From positions 186,001-250,000 of the forward strand of contig NZ_MRAV01000001.1 of NCBI RefSeq assembly GCF_002752355.1: 64,000 bases of DNA, given 5' to 3'. Below the pieces are notes generated by a model that searched no databases, had not been told where the DNA came from, and saw nothing but the letters and a program-made list of their open reading frames with translations. Source of the stretch: Leucobacter sp. OLIS6 (GTDB taxonomy: Bacteria; Actinomycetota; Actinomycetes; Actinomycetales; Microbacteriaceae). Both the position numbers and the translations under genes were made by a program. This document shows positions 2,835 through 9,938 of the stretch, one piece after another (position 1 is the stretch's first letter; each line of letters opens with the position of its first letter).

Positions 2835-4982
2835 TCAGAATCCGGGGATCAGGCGGACGACGAGGTCGATCAGCCAGATCCCGATGAAGGGCGCGACCAC
2901 GCCGCCGAGACCGTAGATCAGCAGGTTGCGGCCGAGCGTCTGCGAGGCGCTGAGCGGTCGGTATCGCACGCCCCGGAGCGCGAGCGGCACGAGCAGCACG
3001 ATCACGATCGCGTTGAACACGATCGCCGAGAGCACCGCCGAAGCGGGGGAGTGCAGGCCCATGAGGTTCAGCGCGGAGAGGCCGGGGAACACCCCCATGA
3101 ACATCGCGGGCACGATCGCGAAGTACTTCGCGACGTCGTTCGCGATCGAGAAGGTGGTGAGCGCGCCGCGCGTGATGAGCAGCTGCTTGCCGATGCGGAC
3201 GATGTCGATGAGCTTCGTCGGGTCGGAGTCGAGGTCGACCATGTTGCCGGCCTCCTTCGCGGCCGAGGTGCCCGAGTTCATCGCGACGCCCACGTCCGCC
3301 TGCGCGAGCGCGGGGGCGTCGTTCGTGCCGTCGCCCGTCATCGCCACCATGCGGCCGCCGGCCTGCTCCTTCCGGATGTACGCGAGCTTGTCCTCCGGCG
3401 TGGCCTCGGCGATGAAGTCGTCGACACCGGCCTCGCGGGCGATGGCGGCGGCGGTAAGCGGGTTGTCGCCCGTCACCATGACCGTGCGGATGCCCATCGC
3501 TCGGAGCTCGCCGAAGCGCTCGGTGAGGCCCTCCTTCACCACGTCCTTCAGATGGATCACGCCGAGCAGCCGGCTGTCTCCCGAAGCGCCGCGCACCGCC
3601 ACGACGAGCGGGGTGCCGCCGCTGCGCGAGATCCCCTCGACGATTCCGTCGAGCTCGGCGCGCAGCTTGCCGGCCGCTGGCGATCCCTCGGCCTCGAGCC
3701 AGGCCGCGACCGCGCTGCCCGCGCCCTTCCGGATCATGCCGCCGTCGGGCAGGTCGAGCCCCGACATGCGCGTCTGAGCGGTGAAGGGCACGACCTCGCC
3801 GACGCCGTCCGCGTCGGGCCGTTCTCCGGCCCGCTCGGCGAGCTCGACGATCGACTGCCCCTCCGGGGTGGGGTCCGCGAGCGACGACAGGGCCGCGGCG
3901 CGCACGAGCTCCCGCTCGTCGACGCCGCTCAGCGGCACGAACGCCGACGCGCGACGGTTGCCGTAGGTGATGGTGCCGGTCTTGTCGAGCAGCAGCGTCG
4001 TCACGTCGCCCGCGGCCTCGACCGCGCGGCCCGACATGGCGAGCACGTTTCGCTGCACGAGTCGATCCATGCCGGCGATGCCGATCGCCGAGAGCAGCGC
4101 GCCGATGGTCGTCGGGATCAGGCAGACGAGCAGGGCCACGAGCACGGTCAGGCTCACGGGGCTCGCCGCATATGAGGCGATCGGGTTCAGCGTCAGCACG
4201 ACCACCACGAAGATGATCGACAGTGCCGCGAGCAGGATCGACAGCGCGATCTCGTTGGGGGTGCGCTGGCGGGAGGCACCCTCGACGAGGGCGATCATCC
4301 GGTCGACGAAGGTCTCGCCCGGCTTCGACGTGATGCGCACTACGATCCGGTCGGACAGCACCCGCGTGCCGCCCGTGACCGCGCTGCGGTCGCCGCCGGA
4401 TTCGCGGATCACGGGAGCGGACTCGCCGGTGATCGCGGACTCGTCGACCGATGCGATGCCGTGGACCACGTCGCCGTCGCCCGGGATCAGCTCGCCCGCG
4501 GTCACGATCACCGCGTCGCCGAGCCGCAGTTCCGCAGAGGGGATCTCCGCAGTCGCCGCACGCTCGGCGCCGGGATCGGCGTCGGCGTCGTACTGCTCGA
4601 CGCGGTGCGCGACCGTGCTGGTGCGCGTACGCCGCAGGGTCTCGGCCTGCGCCTTGCCGCGCCCCTCGGCGATCGACTCGGCGAGGTTCGCGAAGAGCAC
4701 GGTCAGCCAGAGCCAGATCGCGATCGCCCAGGTGAACGGCGCGGGCACCGCGCTGCCGCCCGACGCCGCGGGTCCGCCGAGGAACGGCTCGGCGACGGCG
4801 AGAACGGTGGTGAGCGCGGCCCCCAGCCAGACGACGAACATGACGGGGTTGCGCCACTGCTGGCGCGGATCCAGCTTGCGCACCGCGCCGGGGAGCGCCG
4901 CCCGGAACTGGGCGGCCGAGAGGCCCGAGCGCGTGCGCCGCACGGCGACGGCCTCCGGGACCTGCTGTGTGGAAACGGACAT
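2835..4982 (-). CDS. kdpB: K+-transporting P-type ATPase catalytic subunit KdpB
   Basis: Catalytic P-type ATPase of the KdpFABC K+ uptake complex in the plasma membrane. The 715-residue sequence has all hallmarks: the actuator TGES loop (near residue 190), the phosphorylation loop DKTGT (near 337), and the hinge motif [20 protein letters not shown]. Membrane helices lie at about 45-110, 245-300 and the C-terminus. The ATG at 4982 is only 2 nt from the kdpA stop, indicating tight translational coupling. Confidence 0.98.
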
Positions 4983-7871: not shown

Positions 7872-8501
7872 ATGACGCGCGAATTCCAGAAGCCGATGCT
7901 GCAGCCGAGCGCCACGTTCGACTGGATCATCGGAGCCGACGACCCCGCGACCACGCACCGCCTCGCGCAGGAGACCTCCTGGGCCCTGCTCGATCGTGTG
8001 CGCAGCGTCGCCGACCCCGAGATCGTCGAGCGCGTCGTGCAGCTCGCGAACGGGCGCGGACTCGAGGACGTCGCCGAACTCTGGTCGCACGCGGGCTCCC
8101 ACTCGCTCGCGGGTGTGCTCTGGCGCCTGTACCTGATCCGCCGCATCGCAGCCGGAGACCCCGAGGGCACCGCCGACCTGTTCCGGCGCGGAGCCGCGGC
8201 GGCCGTCACCATCGACCCCGTCGTCGCGGGCGCCGCCGAACCGGTCACCCCCGAATCGATCGCCGCCCTGTGCGACACGATCCTGCGGGGCGTCTTCGCG
8301 GGCGACCTCGCCATCGCGCTCGACCGGGCCGCCGCCTACTGCCGGATCCTCTCGCTCGGCTCCGCAGACCTCGCCGACTCCCGCGATCCCCACGACGACG
8401 CCCACGCCGAGCACCTCACCAAGCGCTCGCTCCGCTACGCGACCCTCGCCGAAGAGCTGCACGCCGGCGCTCGCCGCTGGCGCGACGGCAGCCTCGACTG
8501 A
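7872..8501 (+). CDS. Conserved actinobacterial hypothetical protein
   Basis: 209-residue soluble, mostly helical protein. I recall relatives in Microbacteriaceae but no established function. Features seen: an acidic/alanine-rich helical sequence, no signal peptide, no membrane helix and no recognisable catalytic motif. The start is set by a strong GAGGAGG site just before the ATG at 7872. A TAGACT -10 element at 7815-7820 would give a leader of about 45 nt. Confidence 0.8.
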   Translation: MTREFQKPMLQPSATFDWIIGADDPATTHRLAQETSWALLDRVRSVADPEIVERVVQLANGRGLEDVAELWSHAGSHSLAGVLWRLYLIRRIAAGDPEGTADLFRRGAAAAVTIDPVVAGAAEPVTPESIAALCDTILRGVFAGDLAIALDRAAAYCRILSLGSADLADSRDPHDDAHAEHLTKRSLRYATLAEELHAGARRWRDGSLD

Positions 8502-8530
8502 GCGAGCACGCCCGGGCTGCGCAGCGACTC

Positions 8531-8557
8531 TTGCGCTCAGCGGCGCCGCGTTAGAAT
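8531..8557 (+). promoter_or_regulatory. Promoter of candidate small RNA
   Basis: TTGCGC (8531-8536) and TAGAAT (8552-8557), spacer 15 nt. The expected start site (about 8563-8565) falls exactly at the first base of the closing helix of the RNA below. The -10 element is good; the -35 spacing is short. Confidence 0.5.
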
Positions 8558-8563
8558 GTTCCT

Positions 8564-8680
8564 GCCGGGCCGCAGTAACCCCGGGCTCCAAATTCAGCCG
8601 CTTCGAGCGGCCTTCCGCCGAGAGGCGTTCTGCGGTCCGGTTCTTTCATGCCCGGGGCCGATCCGCCCCGGGCTTTTTCG
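8564..8680 (+). ncRNA. Candidate structured small RNA with intrinsic terminator (novel)
   Basis: No ORF fits here, but the sequence folds well by inspection. An 11-bp closing helix pairs 8565-8575 with 8630-8640, fully complementary with a single G-U. Inside are a GCCGC/GCGGC hairpin (8597-8601 with 8607-8611) and a CGCC-GAGA-GGCG hairpin with a GNRA-type loop (8616-8627), making a three-way junction. A 9-bp GC terminator with five T's follows. The junction strand 8579-8586 (CCCCGGGC) is identical to the terminator's 3' arm (8666-8673), so it could pair with the 5' arm (8650-8657) and block termination. I recognise no known family. It could be a free sRNA or an attenuator. Confidence 0.55.
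8650..8678 (+). terminator. Rho-independent terminator of the small RNA
   Basis: Perfect 9-bp stem (8650-8658 with 8665-8673), 6-nt loop CGATCC, then TTTTT at 8674-8678. Confidence 0.85.
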
Positions 8681-8700
8681 TGTCCGTGCGCGCCCTCGGG

Positions 8701-8833
8701 GAACGGGTCTGCTGACGAGGACCGGGTCGGCTGACGGGGGTCAGATCTGCTGACGCGGACCGGGTCTGTTGACGAGGACCGGGTTTGCTGATGAGGACCG
8801 GGTCTGCTGATGAGGACCGGGTCTGCTTGGGGT
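8701..8833. repeat. Seven tandem 19-bp repeats, left arm of an inverted array
   Basis: Seven contiguous units of exactly 19 bp, consensus GACCGGGTCTGCTGACGAG. Most units differ from it at up to three positions; the third and the last diverge more. No spacers, so not a CRISPR. A 14-bp centre (8834-8847) separates it from a second seven-unit block in inverted orientation. No coding function is evident. Confidence 0.9.
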
Positions 8834-8847
8834 GATCTGAACCGGCG

Positions 8848-8980
8848 CTCGACACCGGAACCGGTCCTCGATAGGAGACCCGACCCCGGTCAGCGGGACC
8901 GGTTGTCGATACCGGAACCGGTCCTCGACACCGGGACCGGCTCTCGGCAGAGGAGGGCACTCTCGGCATCGGCTGTCGGG
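8848..8980. repeat. Seven tandem 19-bp repeats, inverted right arm
   Basis: Seven further 19-bp units beginning CTCGACACCGGAACCGGTC. The reverse complement of the left-arm consensus matches this first unit at 15 of 19 positions, so the two blocks are the same repeat in opposite orientation. Later units are more degenerate. The last unit merges into an 8-bp microsatellite. Confidence 0.8.
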
Positions 8981-9020
8981 CTGTCGGGCTGTCGGGCCGG
9001 CGGGCCGGCGGGCCGACGGG
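8973..9020. repeat. 8-bp tandem repeat (six units)
   Basis: CTGTCGGG three times, CCGGCGGG twice, then CCGACGGG, contiguous. It continues the array above toward the pstB terminator. The rest of the gap up to 9101 is C-rich with nothing else recognisable. Confidence 0.85.
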
Positions 9021-9101
9021 CCTCGTGCCAAACCCCGACCCCGACCCCCGAACCCCCCCCGACCTCGAGACACCGACTGCCGGGCCCCAACCCCGAAAAC
9101 G

Positions 9102-9140
9102 CGGATGGGCTCCTCCGCGAGAAGCGGAGGAGCCCATCCG
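9102..9140 (-). terminator. Terminator of the pst operon
   Basis: Perfect 17-bp stem (9102-9118 with 9124-9140), loop GAGAA, followed on the minus strand by a TTTT run. It lies 18 nt beyond the pstB stop. Confidence 0.8.
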
Positions 9141-9158
9141 TGAGCGGGGAGCGGCTGC

Positions 9159-9938
<780 letters not shown>

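Follow-up and report, generated by a model that had tools for sequence, protein, structure and literature searches.

A structured small RNA adjoining the phosphate-uptake genes of Leucobacter sp. OLIS6 and matched across much of the class Actinomycetes

Introduction

Does the intergenic DNA that adjoins the phosphate-uptake genes of Leucobacter sp. OLIS6 encode an RNA and, if so, does this RNA act on its own transcript or elsewhere in the cell? The question was raised by an initial annotation of the 64,000-nt stretch of DNA analysed here (the window), made from the sequence alone, which had pointed to a candidate new structured RNA with a strand mimicking one arm of a terminator. To our knowledge, few small RNAs are conserved across actinobacteria, namely 6C, Ms1 and the housekeeping RNAs, and the class concerned holds the main antibiotic producers as well as important pathogens.

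Results and Discussion

A three-way junction with an almost invariant strand

The RNA element is a 77-nt fold on the plus strand (8564-8640), composed of a closing helix (P1), two hairpins (P2 and P3) and the unpaired strand CCCCGGGCUCCA (Table 1). The 11-bp closing helix, the pair of internal hairpins, one of GNRA type, and the intrinsic terminator downstream are all present as first described. The RNA is predicted to start at or near 8564, and inspection of the 77 nt found no ATG, GTG or TTG. When the window was scanned with the covariance model R2, the next-best match after the RNA core reached 16 bits. Compared with shuffled sequences, folding gave z = -3.2 for 8564-8640 and z = -4.6 for 8564-8680, which includes the terminator.

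Table 1. Features of the RNA locus, in window coordinates
Feature	Position	Strand	Details
Upstream gene, 209 aa	7872..8501	+	unmatched in Pfam and NCBIfam; commonly found upstream of the RNA
-10 box TAGAAT of predicted promoter	8552..8557	+	from the sequence; TANNNT kept in the family
Structured small RNA core, 77 nt	8564..8640	+	R2 match, 98 bits, E 4e-18 (this copy is itself among the sequences used to build R2)
Closing helix P1, 5' strand	8565..8575	+	pairs with 8630-8640, 11 bp
P1b, two extra pairs	8577..8578	+	A8577-U8629, A8578-U8628
Unpaired, almost invariant strand CCCCGGGCUCCA	8579..8590	+	proposed recognition site
Hairpin P2, loop UUCGA (UNNGA, T-loop-like)	8597..8611	+	stem 8597-8601/8607-8611
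Hairpin P3, GNRA tetraloop GAGA	8616..8627	+	stem 8616-8619/8624-8627
Closing helix P1, 3' strand	8630..8640	+	followed by TTCTTT
Intrinsic terminator	8650..8678	+	stem 8650-8673, 9 GC pairs, loop 6, then TTTTT
pstB, convergent downstream neighbour	9159..9938	-	TIGR00972, 363.9 bits

Two alignments bear on this fold. The alignment of the window's family (110 loci, 106 distinct sequences) was not fitted to the model; 99.1% of its cells are paired, 10 of the 20 pairs have changed on both sides, and 61 compensatory cells compare with 9.3 in shuffles. In the class-wide alignment A2 (90 loci picked for breadth), 98.6% of cells are paired, 15 of 20 pairs are compensatory, and 151 compensatory cells compare with 27 in shuffles and 10-24 with partners slid, pair counts that lean towards structure because A2 is fitted to the model. 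The initial annotation had staked the structure on compensatory changes in the closing helix among relatives; such changes, on both sides, were found at 8 of the 11 P1 pairs in the family and at all 11 class-wide.

Beyond P1, the two extra pairs of P1b exchange together among 90 distinct sequences: 8577-8629 is AU in 69, UA in 6, GC in 4 and unpaired in 11, and 8578-8628 is GC in 51, AU in 22, CG in 1 and unpaired in 16. These exchanges define a three-way junction, where P1 and P1b adjoin P3, P2 lies alongside and CCCCGGGCUCCA remains unpaired between P1b and P2. A C-G to U-A exchange in P2 is present in 13 class-wide sequences. Since the stem of P3 hardly varies, covariation says little for this hairpin, which rests on its invariance and its loop, GNRA in 77 of 91 class-wide sequences and GAGA or GUGA in all 106 family sequences. 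In P2, the loop reads UNNGA in 84 of 91 class-wide sequences, a form resembling the T-loop motif. The CCCGGG of the unpaired strand is shared by all 106 family sequences and by 89 of the 91 class-wide ones.

The wobble pairs of P1 indicate which strand is the RNA. On the plus strand, the eight outer pairs are G-U in 88 of 720 cells of A2 and A-C in none; in the unfitted family alignment, 88 of 1148 cells of the eleven pairs are G-U, with one A-C across ten of those pairs. As A-C is absent or nearly so, we assign the RNA to the plus strand. The same strand-specific wobbles, together with GNRA loops and a -10 box conserved on one side, make it hardly credible that the stretch works as DNA, be it a protein-binding palindrome or a repeat, even though CCCGGG is palindromic and the stretch G+C-rich.

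The minimum free energy fold of the window sequence has a different interior and lies about 5 kcal/mol lower than the conserved fold (-40.2 versus -35.1 kcal/mol). Two of its interior helices pair in 83% and 87% of cells and the third in 98.9%. The first two pairs of this third helix are common to the conserved fold; the other three hardly vary and, being constant in the alignment, are neither supported nor excluded. On the alignment evidence, this alternative interior appears disfavoured relative to the conserved fold.

Distribution across the class

A BLAST search with the locus matched 141 of 150 genomes of the window's family (own genome counted), usually with one copy. Of the nine genomes missed, eight measure at most 1.7 Mb and the ninth is 85% complete. 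The covariance model R1, built from 106 distinct family sequences, matched 244 of 248 genomes of the order, from 20 families and with the own genome counted; the four genomes without a match comprise two smaller than 1 Mb and two with a completeness of about 75%. In class samples, at least 175 of 296 genomes match R1 and at least 212 of 345 (own genome counted) match the broader model R2, 133 of the 345 being without match at these filters; both counts are lower bounds, because the stricter filters of the class searches lose weak matches. A sample of the phylum gave 14 matches among 198 genomes, every one from the window's class.

Among named genomes, at least 119 stretches match, and the 80 listed are all actinobacterial by title. 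They include Cellulomonas, Brevibacterium, Arthrobacter, Nocardia, Gordonia, Rhodococcus, Mycolicibacterium, Nocardioides, Geodermatophilus, Microbacterium, Leucobacter and others. The best match to the neighbouring protein among these 80 loci is in Leucobacter sp. G161 (67% identity), the next being at most 52% identical.

Relation to known RNAs

Rfam 15 gave no match in the window at gathering threshold, and its best score in 8400-8900 was 25.3 bits where 49.5 are needed. Scans of nine loci taken from the class's other families returned only tRNAs outside the element (E up to 0.1), and one further Streptomyces-type locus returned nothing at threshold. Two Rfam families lie below threshold over the element and share with it a layout of helix plus terminator, sX11 (19.4 bits, 70 needed) and anti-hemB (25.3 bits, 49.5 needed); these resemblances are likely due to chance between G+C-rich hairpins. 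The Cuckoo/CcsR RNAs of alphaproteobacteria are controlled by stress sigma factors and carry a conserved C-rich unpaired motif, CCUCCUCCC. They differ from the present RNA in their fold, in the motif itself, which lies in hairpin loops, and in phylum.

The 6C RNA is described as an actinobacterial small RNA with two stem-loops of at least six C each (PMC4046766; PMC8388888), and it resembles our element in belonging to many actinomycetes and in its unpaired C-rich sequence. It was rejected as an identity: in our element, a three-way junction holds the C-rich strand, the loops are UNNGA (84/91) and GNRA (77/91), and Rfam has no match. Ms1 and 6S-like RNAs were rejected as well. Like the present element, Ms1 is a widespread actinobacterial non-coding RNA, found with the help of synteny; its S. 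coelicolor form measures about 230 nt, and the lengths of 6S RNAs start at about 160 nt (PMC9130861). A 77-nt core with a three-way junction contrasts with at least about 160 nt and a long helix with a central bubble, and again there is no Rfam match.

In the group presumed to be Streptomyces, the copies are flanked by a long helicase-like frame on one side and a malic enzyme gene on the other. We take this locus to be the SCO2952-SCO2951 interval. On account of this position, the Streptomyces copy may have been detected earlier as a bare transcript, scr2952, the comparison being by name only. This scr2952 of Streptomyces coelicolor is reported to be in Rfam (PMC8388888), whereas Rfam 15 matches neither Streptomyces-type locus scanned (L188 and L190); its namesake SCO2952 is a helD gene (PMC8655204).

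The top-ranked open-licence literature, taken without supplements, held no recognisable account of this RNA family, and a printed-text search for pieces of its sequence returned nothing about an actinobacterial RNA by title. Thus, as first suggested, the structured RNA is new as far as our searches reach: one RNA spanning much of the class, with a conserved fold supported by covariation, an invariant strand and no Rfam 15 family at threshold. As far as they reach, its changing neighbours and the stress-type promoter sequence in distant relatives are also new.

The terminator and a proposed termination switch

The terminator at 8650-8678 is the sole terminator-like site in 8400-9200, where 0.2 are expected. 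The strand 8579-8586 (CCCCGGGC) is, as had been observed, identical in the window to the terminator 3' arm, from which the initial annotation derived a switch: the strand would mimic that arm, compete for its partner and toggle termination. The exact 8-nt identity speaks for this, as do six distinct family loci, window included, with CCCGGG 10-11 nt past the helix. These are 7 of the 9 loci having CCCGGG in the 60 nt downstream among 128 family loci, a set which holds five genomes twice (the window is among those doubled and counted twice here; 123 loci without repeats); among other loci of the order the count is 1 of 52. However, the strand is kept where such a terminator or complement is absent: within 150 nt, a terminator of the hairpin-plus-T kind turned up in the window alone among the family set and at 1 of 20 loci outside the order. 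Moreover, forced pairing of 8579-8586 with 8650-8657 gives -48.4 versus -64.7 kcal/mol, an antiterminator about 16 kcal/mol worse, and no downstream gene is evident to regulate. The switch is therefore highly improbable and was rejected. So was a terminator/antiterminator attenuator in general, as neither a regulated gene nor a conserved alternative helix involving a downstream terminator was found. Given a strand that is constant without downstream complement and a costly antiterminator, the identity is most plausibly a coincidence among G+C-rich words.

A T-rich tail (at least 6 T in 12) follows P1 in 47 of the 128 family loci versus 3.7 in shuffles, in 1 of 52 other loci of the order and in 2 of 20 outside it. 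This frequency suggests that the closing helix may double as a terminator in the window's family.

Control of read-through into the repeat array, the other role first considered for the RNA, left no sign in our analysis. This tandem array (8700-8827) counts 6.7 copies of a 19-bp unit, GGACCGGGTCTGCTGACGA, and begins directly past the terminator. The same intergenic region holds a second, degenerate 19/38-bp array (8839-8946) and an 8-bp array, GGCCGTCG x6.5 (8971-9022).

Promoter sequences and the thiol-stress link

Of the promoter first read upstream of the RNA, the -10 box TAGAAT is present and the -35 is poor. TANNNT is found 3-12 nt upstream of the RNA in 98 of 110 family loci, and in 115 of the 128 (some genomes twice) versus 7.2 in shuffles. 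The window's -35, TTGCGC, is weak and set at a 15-nt spacer, a sigma-70 scan of 8400-9200 returned no full promoter, and no conserved -35 accompanies the -10 in the family (17 of the 98 loci with TANNNT, versus 11.6 in shuffles).

Other lineages display another type of sequence. The pattern GGAA[TC]-N15-20-GTT precedes the RNA in 13 of 20 loci outside the order (0.1 in shuffles), in 6 of 52 loci of the order's other families (0.05 in shuffles) and in 23 of 128 in the family (0.6 in shuffles), or 20 of 123 without repeats; its spacers are mostly 18. It is also present, by a count without shuffle control, in 27 of the 80 named loci listed. The SigR consensus of Streptomyces coelicolor is GGAAT-N18-19-GTT (PMC9205884). 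This stricter SigR/SigH form is absent from the window, the relatives having been counted with the looser pattern: the GTT of an ECF-type -10 would be 8550-8552, but no GGAAT lies upstream. The window and two genomes of its genus (L006 and L011) have no GGAA[TC]-GTT site and only the TANNNT -10, and a sigma-R-type -35 is absent from most loci of the order. Similar -35 boxes are used by other ECF sigma factors, so that, judging from these motifs, the assignment of the promoter in relatives to the SigR/SigH type is likely rather than proven.

Changing neighbours and an independent gene

The 209-aa gene precedes the RNA, in the same orientation, at 90 of the 110 family loci and faces it from downstream at 6; pstB follows convergently at 30 and precedes the RNA on its strand at 6. 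Absences of neighbours mean little, since the fetched flanks cover only about 1.2-1.5 kb. In a second, overlapping family set, the 209-aa gene is opposed in 8 of 18 loci. Taking both sets, it faces the RNA from downstream in 14 family loci (13 distinct genomes), and in 7 of these the RNA is inverted against both neighbours, pstB being also upstream on the same strand. The absence of a plus-strand gene after the RNA, already pointed out, was borne out: from 8680 up to the pst genes on the minus strand, none stands out in an ORF list where every frame is crowded.

The 209-aa protein family (7872-8501) is itself conserved and, across the order, often encoded next to the RNA. Its members are often misnamed as an RNA polymerase subunit, which led us to consider a relic of a ribosomal L10 leader. 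That candidate was discarded: RF00557 has no match in the own genome, and rplJ is on another contig (C20).

In the order's other families, the 209-aa gene is upstream in 35 of 52 loci and a GlnR-type regulator in 13 of 52, and in 30 of 52, DUF47 and the Pit phosphate transporter come next, in the orientation of the RNA. One locus (L147) has in a row the RNA, DUF47, Pit and a convergent pstB. The RNA could thus be a cis-acting leader of this low-affinity transporter operon, of which the window's family would keep a relic, and a phosphate gene, pstB, flanks it in the window too. Yet neither DUF47 nor Pit was found in the fetched flanks of the 128 family loci (some genomes twice), where the RNA is nevertheless kept in 141 of 150 genomes. 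Other neighbours are present elsewhere: the RNA precedes the malic enzyme gene in the presumed Streptomyces group, and in the presumed Mycobacteriaceae it stands between a whiB-type gene (a 70-aa piece of the translation matches PF02467) and a long convergent frame, both group names being presumed, inferred ones. The RNA is also sometimes inverted against its neighbours. DUF47 and Pit are true neighbours in other families, but dispensable, and we rejected the leader as very unlikely.

Because neighbours change and the RNA is sometimes inverted against both flanks, an RNA gene kept in these different settings is most simply read as an independent transcription unit. The free-standing RNA, one of the two options initially offered, is therefore likely.

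Proposed function

We think it probable, with some reserve, that the element is a trans-acting regulatory RNA of this general type, linked to stress and using its C-rich strand. Its own promoter, predicted just upstream, would yield a separate transcript of some 80-115 nt, a small RNA that would exert its regulation in trans. The C-rich strand would recognise a partner, most likely G-rich sites, for example ribosome-binding sites (GGAG...) of stress-relevant mRNAs. Such pairing is our first hypothesis, since the complement UGGAGCCCGGGG starts with a Shine-Dalgarno-like GGAG. In lineages with GGAAT/C-N18-GTT, thiol-oxidative stress would induce the RNA, and in the window's genus the housekeeping-type -10 would drive it.

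Target searches were null. In six genomes, a genome-wide search, defined as perfect 12-nt sites, found the complement TGGAGCCCGGGG at 12 sites, six of which are the RNA gene, the other six having no gene in common. Pairing of the junction strand upstream of DUF47 reached a mean best score of 16.7 versus 17.8 in shuffles (15 loci). Against the rRNA operon, the best contiguous score on the sense strand was 22, with shuffles at 22-29, and the best gapped duplex, just past the 16S 3' end, was -25.5, with three shuffles at -21.8 to -26.8. There, in the 16S-23S spacer of the window's genome (L334), GGAGCCCTACGGGGTT pairs with AACCCC...GGGCTCC of the RNA through 13 pairs and a 3-nt bulge. As this position looked promising, it was checked in 59 operons, the window's included, and rejected as a target: the site is not kept, the mean duplex is -17.8 versus -18.3 when shuffled, and 5 of 59 operons beat their own shuffles by more than 4 kcal/mol.

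A seed that pairs with mRNAs would seldom be so nearly invariant over a whole class, and such constancy of the strand accords equally with a fixed protein or RNA partner. Alternatively, then, the element could be a housekeeping RNA bound to one invariant protein or machine, such as RNA polymerase, the ribosome or a dedicated RNA-binding protein, through its conserved strand, T-loop-like loop and GNRA loop, without mRNA pairing. The loops and the unpaired strand vary about as little as the inner helices in the class sample, there is usually one copy per genome, and the antisense target search came out empty. Against this, no computation points to a partner, complementarity to rRNA is at chance, and the stress-type promoter of many lineages suits a regulator better than a constitutive part. 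As a whole we regard this alternative as rather unlikely and keep the trans-acting, stress-linked regulator as the preferred reading.

A bolder proposal, which we advance only tentatively, is a core regulatory RNA of the class Actinomycetes, a compact three-way junction whose fixed CCCCGGGCUCCA would serve one universal partner, and which would be wired to sigma-R/H thiol stress in many lineages and to housekeeping expression in others. Actinobacteria would then have an equivalent of the global RNAs known in other phyla. The RNA offers an entry point to ask whether the thiol-stress response has an RNA arm, and the covariance model can now be used by annotators for an element that Rfam 15 does not recognise.

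Additional copies

Genomes of one genus (g99, family f15; G163, G180, G195, G224 and others) carry 2-4 RNA matches each, nearly all other genomes fewer. At one locus (L201), two full copies stand in tandem at 2801-2881 and 2983-3063, about 180 nt apart. At another (L029, ~1600-1741), the full copy is followed by two extra partial copies of the RNA 3' part with a spacing of about 82 nt, which represent tandem decay or amplification of the RNA gene. Finally, genome G016 holds a diverged second copy (L078) in which the closing helix is rebuilt while CCCCGGG, P2 and P3 are intact.
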